A stretch of DNA of 38,006 nucleotides from Promethearchaeota archaeon (GTDB lineage: Archaea > Asgardarchaeota > Lokiarchaeia > Sigynarchaeales > SOKP01). Location of the stretch: positions 1-38,006 of the forward strand of contig JAEOTL010000298.1 in NCBI GenBank assembly GCA_016839845.1, written 5' to 3'. Shown piece after piece: positions 21,546-38,006 of this stretch (the first letter of the stretch is position 1; every line of letters starts with the position of its first letter). The notes under the pieces are model-generated. The model ran no database searches, was not told where the DNA came from, and worked only from the letters and a program-made list of their open reading frames with translations. Position numbers and translations under genes: made by a program.

Positions 21546-22226
21546 ATGATAACTATCGGAGATACCACCATAAATCCAACGAAGATTATTTGTCTAGGTA
21601 CCAACTACATGGATCACATCGAAGAGACAAAAATGGAAGTACCAAAAGAACCATTACTATTCCCTAAGACATTAAATTGCTTGATTACTGATAAACAACC
21701 AATAATATACCCAAAATACTTATTTGACAATAGAAAATATAATCGTGTTGACTATGAGGTAGAGTTAGCATTTATCATTGAGGATCGATGTAAAAATATA
21801 CAAGCTGAGGATGTTTATGATCACATCTTAGGATATACTGTATTCAATGACATAACTGCCCGGAAAATGCAGACAAGAGATATTATTTCTCAGAAACCAT
21901 GGTTTCGCTCCAAGTCTTTTGATACGTTCGGGCCAATTGGTCCGAGGATAGCACTTGTTGATGAAATAAAAGATCCTCATAATCTTGATATTGAATTAAA
22001 GGTAAATGGGACTGTAAAACAATTATCAAATACAAAACACTTACTTTTTAAAATTCCCGAAACTTTTGAATATATTACTAAATTATTTACACTCGAATCG
22101 GGGGATATTATTGCCACTGGAACTCCTGCAGGGATTGGACCAGTCGTTCCTGGAGATATAATTGAAGCAACTATAGAAAAGATTGGTACTCTATCAAATA
22201 ATGTCGTTTTAGAAGGAGAGTGTTAA
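21546..22226 (+). CDS. Fumarylacetoacetate hydrolase (FAH) family protein, copy 1
   Basis: The 226-residue protein has the FAHD1-like fold: NPTKIICLGTNYMDHIEET, the metal-binding DYEVELAFII (two glutamates), GYTVFNDITARKMQ (aspartate ligand), WFRSKSFDTFGPIGP and the C-terminal LESGDIIATGTPAGIGPVVPGDIIE loop. Such proteins act as acylpyruvate hydrolases, oxaloacetate decarboxylases or diketo-acid hydrolases with Mg2+ or Mn2+. It is followed after 6 nt by a close paralogue, so it is part of a tandem duplication. The individual substrate is unknown. Confidence 0.85.
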   Translation: MITIGDTTINPTKIICLGTNYMDHIEETKMEVPKEPLLFPKTLNCLITDKQPIIYPKYLFDNRKYNRVDYEVELAFIIEDRCKNIQAEDVYDHILGYTVFNDITARKMQTRDIISQKPWFRSKSFDTFGPIGPRIALVDEIKDPHNLDIELKVNGTVKQLSNTKHLLFKIPETFEYITKLFTLESGDIIATGTPAGIGPVVPGDIIEATIEKIGTLSNNVVLEGEC

Positions 22227-22232
22227 CTTAAT

Positions 22233-22907
22233 ATGAAAATTGGTCAAACAGAAATTAATCCCACCAAAATTGTATGCTTGGGAAGGAACTATAGAGAGCA
22301 TGCTAAAGAATTCAATGCTCCTGTGCCGACTGAACCCGTAATATTTGTTAAAACAATCAACTCTTTAATTACTGGAAAAGATCCAATAATTTATCCAAGG
22401 ATTTTGTATAATACAGAAGCATTTAATCGAGTAGATCATGAGGTAGAACTTGCATTTATCATGAAAAAAACTTGCAAAAAAGTAACAGTTGATAACGCGT
22501 TCGAGTATATTCTTGGATATTCAATATTTTTAGATATGACCGCAAGAGAGATGCAAATTTTTGACCGAAATAAAAATTTACCCTGGTATCGGAGTAAGAA
22601 TTTCGATACGTTTTCAGTTATAGGACCTCAAATCGTTTCCATCAATGAAATTGAAAATCCGCACGATTTAACCATAAGATTAAAATTAAATAGTGAAATA
22701 CGACAAGAATCTAATACAAAGCTTATGATTTTTAAGATACCTGAGATTGTGGAATACATTTCGAGCTATTTGACCCTTGAGAGGGACGATATTATCGCTA
22801 CAGGAACTCCGAGTGGAGTAGGACCTGTTTTACCGGGGGATATTATTGAAGCATCAATAGACAAAATTGGCACAATTACCCATAAAGTTGTCTTAGAAGA
22901 AGGATGA
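22233..22907 (+). CDS. FAH family protein, copy 2
   Basis: This 224-residue tandem paralogue of the upstream gene keeps every motif: PTKIVCLGRNYREHAKE (closer to the classic FAH RNYxxHAxE signature than copy 1), DHEVELAFIM, FLDMTAREMQ, WYRSKNFDTFSVIGP and the ATGTPSGVGPVLPGD loop. The metal ligands are intact. The pair may form a heteromer or have split substrates. Its last 45 codons and the small gene after it were copied to 35.6-36.0 kb, where the FAH part is now only a fragment. GGAGAG at 22215-22220 serves as a somewhat distant SD. Confidence 0.87.
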   Translation: MKIGQTEINPTKIVCLGRNYREHAKEFNAPVPTEPVIFVKTINSLITGKDPIIYPRILYNTEAFNRVDHEVELAFIMKKTCKKVTVDNAFEYILGYSIFLDMTAREMQIFDRNKNLPWYRSKNFDTFSVIGPQIVSINEIENPHDLTIRLKLNSEIRQESNTKLMIFKIPEIVEYISSYLTLERDDIIATGTPSGVGPVLPGDIIEASIDKIGTITHKVVLEEG

Positions 22908-35626: not shown

Positions 35627-35764
35627 ATTACTCTTGAGAAGGATGATATTATCGCTACGGGAACTCCGAGTGGAGTAGGTCCAGTCTTACCCGGGGATGT
35701 TATTGAAGCTTCAATTGACAAAATTGGCACCATTACCCGCAAAGTTGCCTTGGAGGAAGAATAA
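35627..35764 (+). pseudogene. C-terminal fragment of an FAH-family gene
   Basis: The frame reads LEKDDIIATGTPSGVGPVLP and on to a TAA, matching the last 45 codons of FAH copy 2 with a few conservative changes (R to K, I to V, H to R). There is no start and no upstream part of the gene, since unrelated sequence precedes it. It is the left edge of a duplicated block whose right part is the small CC gene. Confidence 0.85.
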
Positions 35765-36217: not shown

Positions 36218-36816
36218 GTGAGTAGTAAAGGAAAAGTAATAGTTAAAGCCCTTGTGACTGGTGGGACTGTTTAAATTTAGCAATCACTTCGATTGAACCC
36301 CAAGTGCATCAGGAGGGCCGCCGATAAGTCAGAACGTATCGTTCTAATTACTTTACGGTAAAGGCCCCGCAGTCGGCCCCACTGGCATAACCGGAAACCA
36401 CCTCGGTTTCTGATGCATACATAAAAGATGTGGTCGACGCAATTAATGAACAGACTATGGTTTTTAGAGGTCTTACAGTCCCAGTAAGAATTGAATGCGA
36501 TCCGGAAACAAAGCAATTTGAGATTTTTGTTGAAACTCCATCCACTGCTTCACTACTACTAAAAGAAGCTGGTGTAGAAAAAGGAAGTTCAGAAAATGCC
36601 GAGAAAAAAATTGGGGATCTCACACTCGACCAAGTCATTCAGGTAGTTGAAGCAAAGAAGAGCATCTTTCTTGATAAAACGATGAAAAACGCTGTTAAAT
36701 CAACATTAGGCACAGCATTATCGATAGGAGTTACTGTTGAAGGAGAAGACCCTAGGGAGATTCAGAAGAGGATTGATAATGGAGAATACAACGAAAAAAT
36801 AAAAGGTGAGTTATAG
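36218..36816 (+). CDS. rpl11: Ribosomal protein uL11, coding sequence split into four exons by three mini-introns
   Basis: The gene begins at GTG 36218 with SD AGGTGA 6 nt upstream. The first 16 codons end in VTGGT, then a stop appears. Joining exons 36218-36267, 36305-36325, 36362-36390 and 36419-36816 gives one frame of 165 residues, the normal archaeal length. It reads GGTASGGPPIGPAVGPTGIN at the exon joints, aligning without gaps with the archaeal consensus GGKATPGPPLGPALGPLGVN. Downstream, KDVVDAINEQT and VPVRIECDP are standard. The conserved Gly/Pro segment contacts thiostrepton-site rRNA and translation factors, so unspliced mRNA could not make uL11. A GTG at 36430 is a false start. 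It heads the uL11-uL1-uL10 operon. Confidence 0.93.
36268..36304 (+). other. BHB intron 1 of rpl11, 37 nt
   Basis: Protein alignment places the insertion at 36268-36304, with two-base ambiguity. In RNA, exon UGGG (36262-36265) pairs with intron CCCA (36299-36302) as a 4-bp helix. Three-base bulges ACU (36266-36268) and AGU (36303-36305) flank it on opposite strands, and GUU (36269-36271) pairs with AAC (36296-36298) directly inside. A CAAUC/GAUUG hairpin (36281-36295) tops the intron. Cuts after the second bulge base (AC|U and AG|U) give exactly the in-frame joint. The outer exon-exon helix is weak. Confidence 0.85.
36326..36361 (+). other. BHB intron 2 of rpl11, 36 nt (relaxed motif)
   Basis: Outer exon helix GGGCC (36315-36319) pairs with GGCCC (36363-36367). 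The central helix is GCCG (36320-36323) with CGGU (36356-36359). The 3' bulge is AAA (36360-36362) and the 5' side AUA (36324-36326) faces a few unpaired bases, so the 5' half is a relaxed internal loop. A perfect AGAACG/CGUUCU hairpin (36331-36345) lies inside. Cuts AU|A and AA|A restore the ATA codon. The length is a multiple of three but an in-frame TAA is present. Confidence 0.83.
36391..36418 (+). other. BHB intron 3 of rpl11, 28 nt
   Basis: The joint is unambiguous from the protein (GIN|IK needs ATA A+AC ATA). Exon GCAU (36385-36388) pairs with intron AUGC (36413-36416). Bulges AAC (36389-36391) and AUA (36417-36419) carry the cuts AA|C and AU|A. The intron body is an 8-bp hairpin, 36392-36399 with 36405-36412, one G-U, loop ACCUC. 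This is a textbook BHB apart from a short outer helix (UG/CA). Confidence 0.88.
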
Positions 36817-37547
36817 AACTGAAAGTAGATGAAAAATTACTAAGAAAGTCTTTAAATGCCGCGATCGACTTCTCGATTATAAAAAAGGAAGGATTTAAAG
36901 AAAAGGTTAGAAAATTTGATGAGACTGTTGATGTCATTATTAATATTAAAGATGTGAATCTAAACGATCCTAAAAATAGAATCGATAAGGAAATCATCCT
37001 CTCACACGAAATAATCACAAAAGGTAAACCAAATATCTGTGTAATCGCTTCAGATGAGATTTTAATGGAAGCAAAGAAACTTGGTGTTGATACTCTTGAT
37101 TCAGATGGGCTTAAAAGCCTAAATAATGATGAAAAGAAAGAGAAAAAGAAATTTGCTAAGAAGTATGATTTTTTTGTTGTCGAGGATAAGATGATGAGAG
37201 ACGTTGCTCGATATTTAGCACGATTCCTAGGTCCTCTGGGTAAAATGCCAAAACCCTTCCCTTCAGGATATGGTATTATTTCTAGTCCAGATGATCTAAA
37301 AGTTGCTTATGATCGCTATAAGAAGATAATCCGTATTCAAATGAAAAAGCAACCAATTATTTTCGTGAAGATTGGGAAGAAATCAATGGAAATTGATAAA
37401 TTATTTGAAAATATGAAAACAATTGTTAACTATATTGCAGATCAAATGCCCCACAAGTTCAATAATTTCAAGTCTATGCATTTGAAGAGTACTATGGGCA
37501 AGCCTGTAAAAGTTACTGAAGATTTTCTAAAGAGTATAGAGGTGTAA
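36813..37547 (+). CDS. rpl1: Ribosomal protein uL1 with a non-standard start
   Basis: The frame upstream of the first GTG (36954) encodes the normal uL1 N-terminus (KVDEKLLRKSLNAAIDFS, then VDVIINIKDVNLNDPKNRID), so the gene starts earlier. After the in-frame TGA at 36807 the choices are ATA 36813 or CTG 36819. ATA overlaps the uL11 TAG as ATAG, the same arrangement as at the DUF134 gene, with AGGTGA (36804-36809) 3 nt before it; CTG would have a 9-nt spacing. The rest is typical: FLGPLGKMPKPFP, MKKQPIIFVKIGKKSM, LKSTMGKPVKV. It binds the L1 stalk of 23S rRNA; archaeal uL1 often also represses its own operon. Confidence 0.9.
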   Translation: MELKVDEKLLRKSLNAAIDFSIIKKEGFKEKVRKFDETVDVIINIKDVNLNDPKNRIDKEIILSHEIITKGKPNICVIASDEILMEAKKLGVDTLDSDGLKSLNNDEKKEKKKFAKKYDFFVVEDKMMRDVARYLARFLGPLGKMPKPFPSGYGIISSPDDLKVAYDRYKKIIRIQMKKQPIIFVKIGKKSMEIDKLFENMKTIVNYIADQMPHKFNNFKSMHLKSTMGKPVKVTEDFLKSIEV

Positions 37548-37551
37548 AGAA

Positions 37552-38006
37552 ATGATTAAAAAGGACCATATTCCGCAATGGAAATTAGATGAGATTAATA
37601 CTCTTATAGATTTATTTAAGACACATAAAAATGTTGCAGTGATCGAAGTTGCCCATATTCATGACACGCAAATTCAATCAACTCGCAAAATTTTAAGAGG
37701 AAAAGCGGTATTTCGAATGTCAAAAAAATCTTTGCAGCAAAGAGCAATCGAACAATATGAAAAAGAATCGAAAAAACCTAATTTAGATGCACTGGCAAGT
37801 CATATCCCAGGTCAGTCTAGTCTTGTGTTTACTGATTTAGATCTCTTTGAACTTAAGAAAATATTTCATGAAAGCGAGTGGATGGTACCCGCAAAACCGA
37901 ATGAAGTTACACCTGTTGACATATGGGTCCCTGCCGGAGACACAGGTTTACCGACTGGACAGGTTATTAGCGAATTAAACATGACCTTAAAACTCCCGAC
38001 TCGAAT
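37552..38006 (+). CDS. rplP0: Ribosomal protein uL10 (P0), 3' truncated by the window end
   Basis: The frame begins at ATG 37552 after SD GAGGTG and runs off the window after 151 codons. It shows QWKLDEINTLIDLFKTHKNVAVIEV, TRKILRGKAVFRMSKKSL, HIPGQSSLVFTDLDLFEL, PAKPNEVTPVDIWVPAGDTGLPTG, the archaeal/eukaryotic P0 pattern. It anchors P1/uL12 dimers in the GTPase centre together with uL11. It starts 4 nt after the uL1 stop, so it is in the same operon. Confidence 0.93.
   Translation, partial: MIKKDHIPQWKLDEINTLIDLFKTHKNVAVIEVAHIHDTQIQSTRKILRGKAVFRMSKKSLQQRAIEQYEKESKKPNLDALASHIPGQSSLVFTDLDLFELKKIFHESEWMVPAKPNEVTPVDIWVPAGDTGLPTGQVISELNMTLKLPTR

Follow-up and report, generated by a model that had tools for sequence, protein, structure and literature searches.

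Cbf5 pre-mRNA carries an intron in Crenarchaea of the Desulfurococcales and Sulfolobales, and the available excerpt of PMC2738675 gives this gene as the only one with confirmed archaeal mRNA splicing at the time of that report. According to the same excerpt, archaeal bulge-helix-bulge (BHB) introns are cut between the second and third bulge residues, and the cbf5 intron combines a BHB-like structure cut at this position with a variable interior, conserved exon-paired parts, a hetero-oligomeric EndA, and a common origin with lineage losses. Among Asgard archaea, the part of PMC11291895 that is available describes multiple tRNA introns in Atabeyarchaeia and Freyarchaeia, with several per gene and at non-canonical positions, and relaxed BHBs are given as substrates of (alpha-beta)2 EndA, the broad-specificity enzyme of Crenarchaea, in the excerpt of PMC6379350.

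The uL11 genes of Lokiarchaeia, archaea akin to the ancestor of the eukaryotic cell, resemble each of these systems in part. Their introns appear from sequence to be like that of cbf5 in all of the respects listed above, but in cbf5 a single site holds the only intron, probably lost twice or more (PMC2738675, in excerpt), whereas in uL11, an Asgard ribosomal protein gene, there are four sites, of which as many as three are filled in one gene, and at least 33 changes over the sites. They are like archaeal tRNA and rRNA BHB introns in their presence in Asgard archaea and in occurring several per gene (PMC11291895, in the part available), but sit in mRNA, with exon helices encoded in silent codon positions, and Lokiarchaeia, like Crenarchaea with (alpha-beta)2 EndA (PMC6379350, in excerpt), have two EndA-type genes, recognized by sequence in nine of 10 genomes. 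The uL11 introns thus appear to be of a known kind, that of cbf5, in a new gene and lineage, and with crowding, turnover, and silent-site constraint to a degree that is new. The preliminary description of this locus took the case to be undescribed, which stands for multiple introns in uL11 but not for the general kind, known from cbf5; neither a uL11 intron nor a ribosomal gene acting as a multi-intron hotspot was found in the open-licence literature other than preprints, and a uL11 intron goes unmentioned in the available parts of PMC11291895, PMC13149111, PMC6379350, and PMC12397907. In our view uL11, a core ribosomal gene of Asgard archaea, strongly qualifies as a candidate second archaeal mRNA splicing system, much more dynamic than the first, and one in which replicate natural experiments permit study of how introns are gained and lost and how splicing selects on silent sites.

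The interrupted uL11 gene

The window, the whole 38,006-nt stretch of lokiarchaeal DNA analyzed here, closes with a run of ribosomal protein genes coding for uL11, uL1, and uL10, identified by Pfam matches (Table 1). The uL11 gene is unreadable in a single frame, and its C-terminal part matches PF00298, with a weak match to PF03946 under its cut-off. Spliced alignment with an intact relative, in which introns of any phase are permitted and RNA structure is not used, recovers the complete N-terminal part from 36218 on and bears out exactly the three insertions of 37, 36, and 28 nt reported in the preliminary description, and subtracting these 101 nt from 36218-36816 leaves 498 nt, or 165 codons and a stop. 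From the protein alone, 9, 9, and 5 junction slides are possible for introns A, B, and C, respectively, and BHB geometry picks a single junction pair for each (Table 1); the spliced alignment placed intron A 3 nt to the left of this, with a nearly equal fit.

The three 4-bp exon-intron helices of the preliminary description are also present, with the junctions at the BHB cut position. In the window, the classical outer exon-exon helix adjoining the bulge is seen at site B only; the outer helix of site A is longer but lies at some distance from the bulge, and at site C there is almost no outer helix, as in a relaxed BHB. Folding energies of the window segments exceed those of shuffled sequences in stability by a weak to moderate margin (z of -1.0 for A, -1.6 for B, and -2.9 for C), and the case for BHB structure is carried by the comparison across relatives and not by single-segment energies.

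Table 1. Features of the interrupted uL11 gene and its downstream neighbors (coordinates are those of the window)
Feature	Coordinates	Strand	Remarks
uL11 (rpl11), interrupted	36218..36816	+	start codon GTG, stop codon TAG (36814-36816); 165 aa once three introns are removed
Exon 1	36218..36267	+	3' end ...GGT GGG AC
Site A outer exon-exon helix, 5' strand	36247..36257	+	
Site A central helix, exon strand UGGG	36262..36265	+	
Intron A, 37 nt	36268..36304	+	within codon 17, phase 2; site also used in 12/48 relatives
Site A central helix, intron strand CCCA	36299..36302	+	
Exon 2	36305..36325	+	
Site A outer exon-exon helix, 3' strand	36309..36319	+	
Site B outer helix, 5' strand GGGCC	36315..36319	+	Gly21-Pro22 codons
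Site B central helix, exon strand GCCG	36320..36323	+	
Intron B, 36 nt	36326..36361	+	within codon 24, phase 2; inner hairpin 36331-36345; site in 7/48 relatives
Site B central helix, intron strand CGGU	36356..36359	+	
Exon 3	36362..36390	+	
Site B outer helix, 3' strand GGCCC	36363..36367	+	Gly25-Pro26 codons
Site C central helix, exon strand GCAU	36385..36388	+	
Intron C, 28 nt	36391..36418	+	within codon 34, phase 1; hairpin 36392-36412; site in 14/48 relatives
Site C central helix, intron strand AUGC	36413..36416	+	
Exon 4 (remainder of uL11)	36419..36816	+	contains the 128-aa frame 36430-36816 kept by plain ORF reading
uL1 gene, uninterrupted neighbor	36819..37547	+	apparent CTG start
uL10 gene	37552..38006	+	uninterrupted within the window; continues past its end

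Recurrence and predicted BHB structure among lokiarchaeal uL11 genes

A contig scan with the uL11 alignment yields 50 uL11 loci, all titled Lokiarchaeota or Lokiarchaeia, of which 48 hold the 5' part of the gene and, together with the window, make 49 assessable genes; L035 and L044 are without upstream exons and were excluded before counting, as were L055-L074, which are the same contigs as named loci, from every count. The window uL11 falls within these loci, with a top identity of 85% (L001), and groups in the tree with L001, L002, L005, and L011 in a supported set. Breaks at the same codons are present in 26 of the 48 relatives as well as in the window, and these 27 genes bear 38 introns of 28 to 37 nt at four sites that are constant at the BHB register: A in codon 17 (13 introns), B in codon 24 (8 introns), C in codon 34 (15 introns), and D in codon 28 (2 introns). 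The other 22 genes are intron-free, and the remaining sets are C (8 genes), A (5), A+C (4), B (3), D (2), A+B (2), A+B+C (2), and B+C (1), with the triple set in the window and L034 only. Intron removal recovers the conserved N-terminal stretch in all 27 carriers, the first few residues being uncertain in some (e.g., L003 and L047). The excluded locus L035 shows an insert of ∼31 nt.

A complete 4-bp exon-intron central helix forms in 34 of the 38 introns at one register per site, and in 0 to 3 of 38 at each of the 18 other registers tried; the registers of the four sites were themselves picked by BHB fit, so that the comparison concerns one register serving nearly all carriers. At this register the intron junctions are predicted to fall between bulge nucleotides 2 and 3. 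Twenty-four of the 34 complete helices are Watson-Crick only, and the other four introns pair at three of four positions, all of them at site B (four of eight introns). An inner hairpin is present in most introns. Across carriers, the structure is near-strict hBHBh' at B (in most) and at D, with a long offset exon-exon helix at A and mainly the inner helix at C.

Exon and intron strands change in step at site A, where an exon UGGG or AGGG is met by an intron CCCA or CCCU to match (two with a G-U variant), and the first central pair is U-A in seven genes and A-U in six. Own partners pair at four of four positions in all 13 carriers, and swapping them between exon classes leaves three of four in all 84 combinations; the two exon classes may reflect few events. 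Paired alignment cells make up 96.8% at A, 94.4% at C, and 92.5% at B, compared to 21 to 65% with partners slid by 1 to 3 columns. The covariation score, calculated on structures drawn from the same sequences, is reached by none of 500 shuffles at A, B, or C. Pairs changed on both sides number three at A, four at C, and four at B; of 500 shuffles, 471, 32, and 18, respectively, do as well, so that this count is uninformative at A. For further pair types, the corresponding numbers of shuffles are 186 at A, 391 at C, and 175 at B.

Those of the nearest database proteins that carry a source name are Asgard, and N-terminal truncations at recurrent positions are frequent among these neighbors; the ALVTGG segment is missing from 49 of the best 120 of the 545 nearest proteins, with contig ends explaining some. 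The uL11 protein is thus truncated in many public lokiarchaeal protein sets, and marker-gene work is affected. Protein P0001, a near-identical allele of the window uL11, is out of frame before FRGLTVP, as if a further short insertion followed VFR.

Silent positions, descent, and competing explanations

Because the splicing helices use exon letters, synonymous codons should be restricted where an intron is present. Gly16 is coded by GGG in all 13 site-A carriers and in three of 36 other genes, and Gly32 by GGC in all 15 site-C carriers and in six of 34 others. Among independent phylogenetic pairs, Gly16 and intron A give a mean of 8.6 in the same direction and 0 in the opposite direction of nine (median P = 0.0039), and Gly32 and intron C a mean of 7.8 and 0 of 11 (median P = 0.0078). 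In A carriers the paired third bases of codons 13, 16, 19, 20, and 21 are invariant (1.6 to 1.9 bits in non-carriers), while codon 18, which is unpaired and beside the junction, has 1.83 bits in carriers and 1.77 in non-carriers. The fit of silent-site constraint to pairing is good, not perfect, as codon 17 in the bulge has 0 bits in carriers and 1.61 in non-carriers, and the unpaired codon 14 has 0.99 and 1.74 bits, respectively. The outer exon-exon helix at site A has 9 to 10 of 10 pairs in all 13 carriers and 2 to 8 in all 36 non-carriers. To our knowledge, an exonic splicing code in silent positions would be the first for any non-spliceosomal mRNA intron system.

The loop GGPPIGPAVGPTGI of uL11 is encoded by repeated GGN CCN units that pair mutually, and successive units form four or five of five pairs in all 49 genes. 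All five pairs are present in seven of eight B carriers versus 17 of 41 other genes, and in both D carriers versus six of 47 others. Sites B and D could thus obtain their outer helix from these Gly-Pro codon repeats at no cost. We tentatively picture the uL11 mRNA as a nursery, in which Gly-Pro self-complementarity gives a BHB at hardly any cost to the protein and mini-introns have been kept, shuffled, and lost over a large part of lokiarchaeal history, leaving a silent exonic splicing code, with the turnover visible between sister species; this picture seems to us slightly more apt to fail than to hold.

How the introns came to their present distribution was considered on a tree of the uL11 C terminus, uL1, and uL10 with 50 rows, 48 with known introns; L047, which is without uL1 and uL10, was left out. 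The distribution is very patchy, with at least 11, 7, 14, and 1 changes for A, B, C, and D, respectively, and 21, 16, 16, and 0 losses under single gain and midpoint rooting. Intron sets are barely more clustered than shuffled labels (23 changes compared to a mean of 24.9, with values as low in 15 of 200), so vertical descent requires very frequent loss, and the sisters L012 (A+C) and L015 (B) have non-overlapping sets. This would accord with real BHB introns that were gained repeatedly, spreading from gene to gene into fixed target sites as mobile or retro-inserted elements, and the flanking silent codons common to carriers, along with the reduced variability of codons 14 and 17, are as co-conversion would give. 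However, the common silent codons lie mostly in helices, and co-conversion would be expected to include codon 18 in its block, so that selection on pairing accounts better for the pattern; the GGG codon that such a target needs is present in only the three of 36 genes without intron A given above. Moreover, intron identity drops with tree distance, with Mantel r of -0.83 at A (n = 13), -0.48 at B (n = 8), and -0.51 at C (n = 14), values reached by 0%, 2.7%, and 0.05% of permutations, respectively, and descent with repeated precise loss is thus favored over free mobility; on the other side, distant site-A introns barely exceed shuffled ones in identity (0.57 compared to 0.54). We consider repeated gain unlikely, if still the most serious competitor, and old introns with many precise losses appear to be the best fit, perhaps with some local exchange of introns.

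In translational bypassing, of which phage T4 gene 60 and the byp elements of some yeast mitochondria are examples, ribosomes would hop across insertions that remain in the message, and short, hairpin-forming, patchy insertions in a conserved coding stretch do look like byps. Take-off and landing codons agree at two of three letters for 22 of the 38 insertions, but at one of three in 15 and exactly in just one, with seven positions tried for each, and bypassing predicts neither exon-intron pairing at the EndA cut register, which fits instead, nor exon-exon helix constraint, making it a very improbable account. Errors of assembly or sequencing could be entertained, as could decay of a pseudogene whose intact counterpart lies elsewhere in the genome, in that the relatives' records are titled metagenome-assembled. 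However, identical codon sites and phases recur in the 26 relatives under many different accessions, and such recurrence in separately deposited genomes makes assembly error very unlikely; the exon-encoded protein and the pairing are conserved, and no second intact uL11 was found in the genomes of the 26 intron-bearing relatives, with one, G146, ambiguous. There, an additional contig (G146:C33:7-219) begins within uL11 and shares 40 residues with the copy at a contig end of this MAG, and could be a strain variant or fragment. We give error or decay next to no credence.

The preliminary description also suggested a control point for ribosome production. In favor of introns acting as a regulatory switch for ribosome synthesis, uL11 comes first in the uL11-uL1-uL10 run, no complete uL11 could be made from unspliced mRNA, and splicing of some yeast ribosomal protein genes is reported to be regulatory. 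However, the 22 intron-free genes include close sisters of carriers and the carriers keep different introns, a turnover that is not expected of a conserved switch; the control-point role is therefore unsupported, and we think it improbable. Two further intron classes were considered and rejected: the borders at the BHB register do not, by eye, follow the GU...AG of spliceosomal introns, and group I and II introns were set aside on length, since a ribozyme core does not fit into 28 to 37 nt.

The reading of the insertions as BHB introns, as first proposed, is strongly supported by the sites, the helix register, the matched exon and intron changes, and the silent-site constraint, all drawn from comparative sequence data. 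Very probably, these are introns of the uL11 pre-mRNA that are cut out by EndA with the exons joined by RtcB, old and mostly vertically inherited, precisely lost, and with silent helix positions under selection.

Candidate splicing enzymes and scans beyond uL11

By sequence, the upstream exon can form 4 bp with nucleotides near the intron 3' end, so that the junctions land at the EndA cut position; as proposed, a two-subunit lokiarchaeal EndA would cut both junctions of each intron, RtcB would join the exons, and the spliced mRNA would be translated into a normal 165-residue uL11. The introns are likely old in Lokiarchaeia, passed on mostly vertically and lost precisely, one by one, in many lineages. 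To judge from the association with carriers, selection would hold the flanking silent positions for the helices while an intron is present, with drift after its loss, and the Gly-Pro codons (GGN CCN) of the N-terminal loop may favor introns by offering an outer helix with the protein unchanged. If spliced in this way, these organisms need tRNA-splicing enzymes directly for making ribosomes.

Genes of the EndA family are present in all 10 genomes of lokiarchaeal relatives searched, with two copies in nine. The subunit of the first kind, of which one was searched, has chains 3p1z_B and 3ajv_B as its best PDB matches, and all four aligned subunits of this kind keep an FFGSPLGxxKPR loop with its lysine, which we take to be that of the crenarchaeal EndA specificity loop. 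The second kind, with sequence from two genomes and one searched, has 1a79 as its best match and is without an obvious catalytic histidine in either genome. RtcB is present in 11 of the 12 genomes of lokiarchaeal relatives searched, with no match in one MAG, G010.

Scans for split coding-strand frames point to uL11 only. Self-comparison of 51 sources (327 kb) found none elsewhere, at a sensitivity that flagged uL11 in the window and 17 relatives, or 18 of the 27 known carriers, and missed about one-third, and the same scan of 12 stretches from eight lokiarchaeal genomes (377 kb, of which 292 kb is comparable coding sequence, ribosomal protein regions included) flagged uL11 in six of six and no other split coding-strand frame; since single introns near gene ends can escape the scan, the restriction to uL11 is provisional. 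No interruption was found in the ribosomal protein regions of seven lokiarchaeal genomes, uL1 is in one piece in 49 of 50 relatives (it is absent from L047, whose contig ends in uL11), and uS12, cbf5 (TruB_N), and uL14 are each uninterrupted in the 25 of 26 lokiarchaeal genomes with a match, partial copies of uS12 (G133) and uL14 (G141) lying at contig ends. Across the phylum, uL11 is matched in 210 of 227 genomes, and among the matches listed no interrupted uL11 was seen outside Lokiarchaeia, with membership judged by identity and by contigs common to named loci; the 17 genomes with weak, partial, stop-bearing, or no matches were re-searched, leaving six without a match and 11 with contig ends or unbroken N termini.

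The remaining split-frame rows are antisense shadows of uL11 and one 60-aa minus-strand open reading frame of G001 (L075). The latter matches in two pieces, with size differences of 16 to 88 nt between genomes, in L083 (G006), L082 (G007), and L086 (G136), and is perhaps a structured RNA. ARAGORN predicts only two tRNAs on 19 lokiarchaeal stretches, both tRNA-Sec, located in the ribosomal protein regions of two genomes (L078:2205-2297 and L079:18029-18121).

Two minor features of the window flank the uL11 gene. The uL1 start is CTG at 36819 (within 36813-36830), and the aligned start in relatives is ATG, TTG, GTG, or, in L004, CTG. Upstream, at ∼35627-35764, there is a fragment that by eye is like the C terminus of the tandem genes at 21546-22226 and 22233-22907, which are presumably fumarylacetoacetase-like, and it is apparently a broken duplicate.
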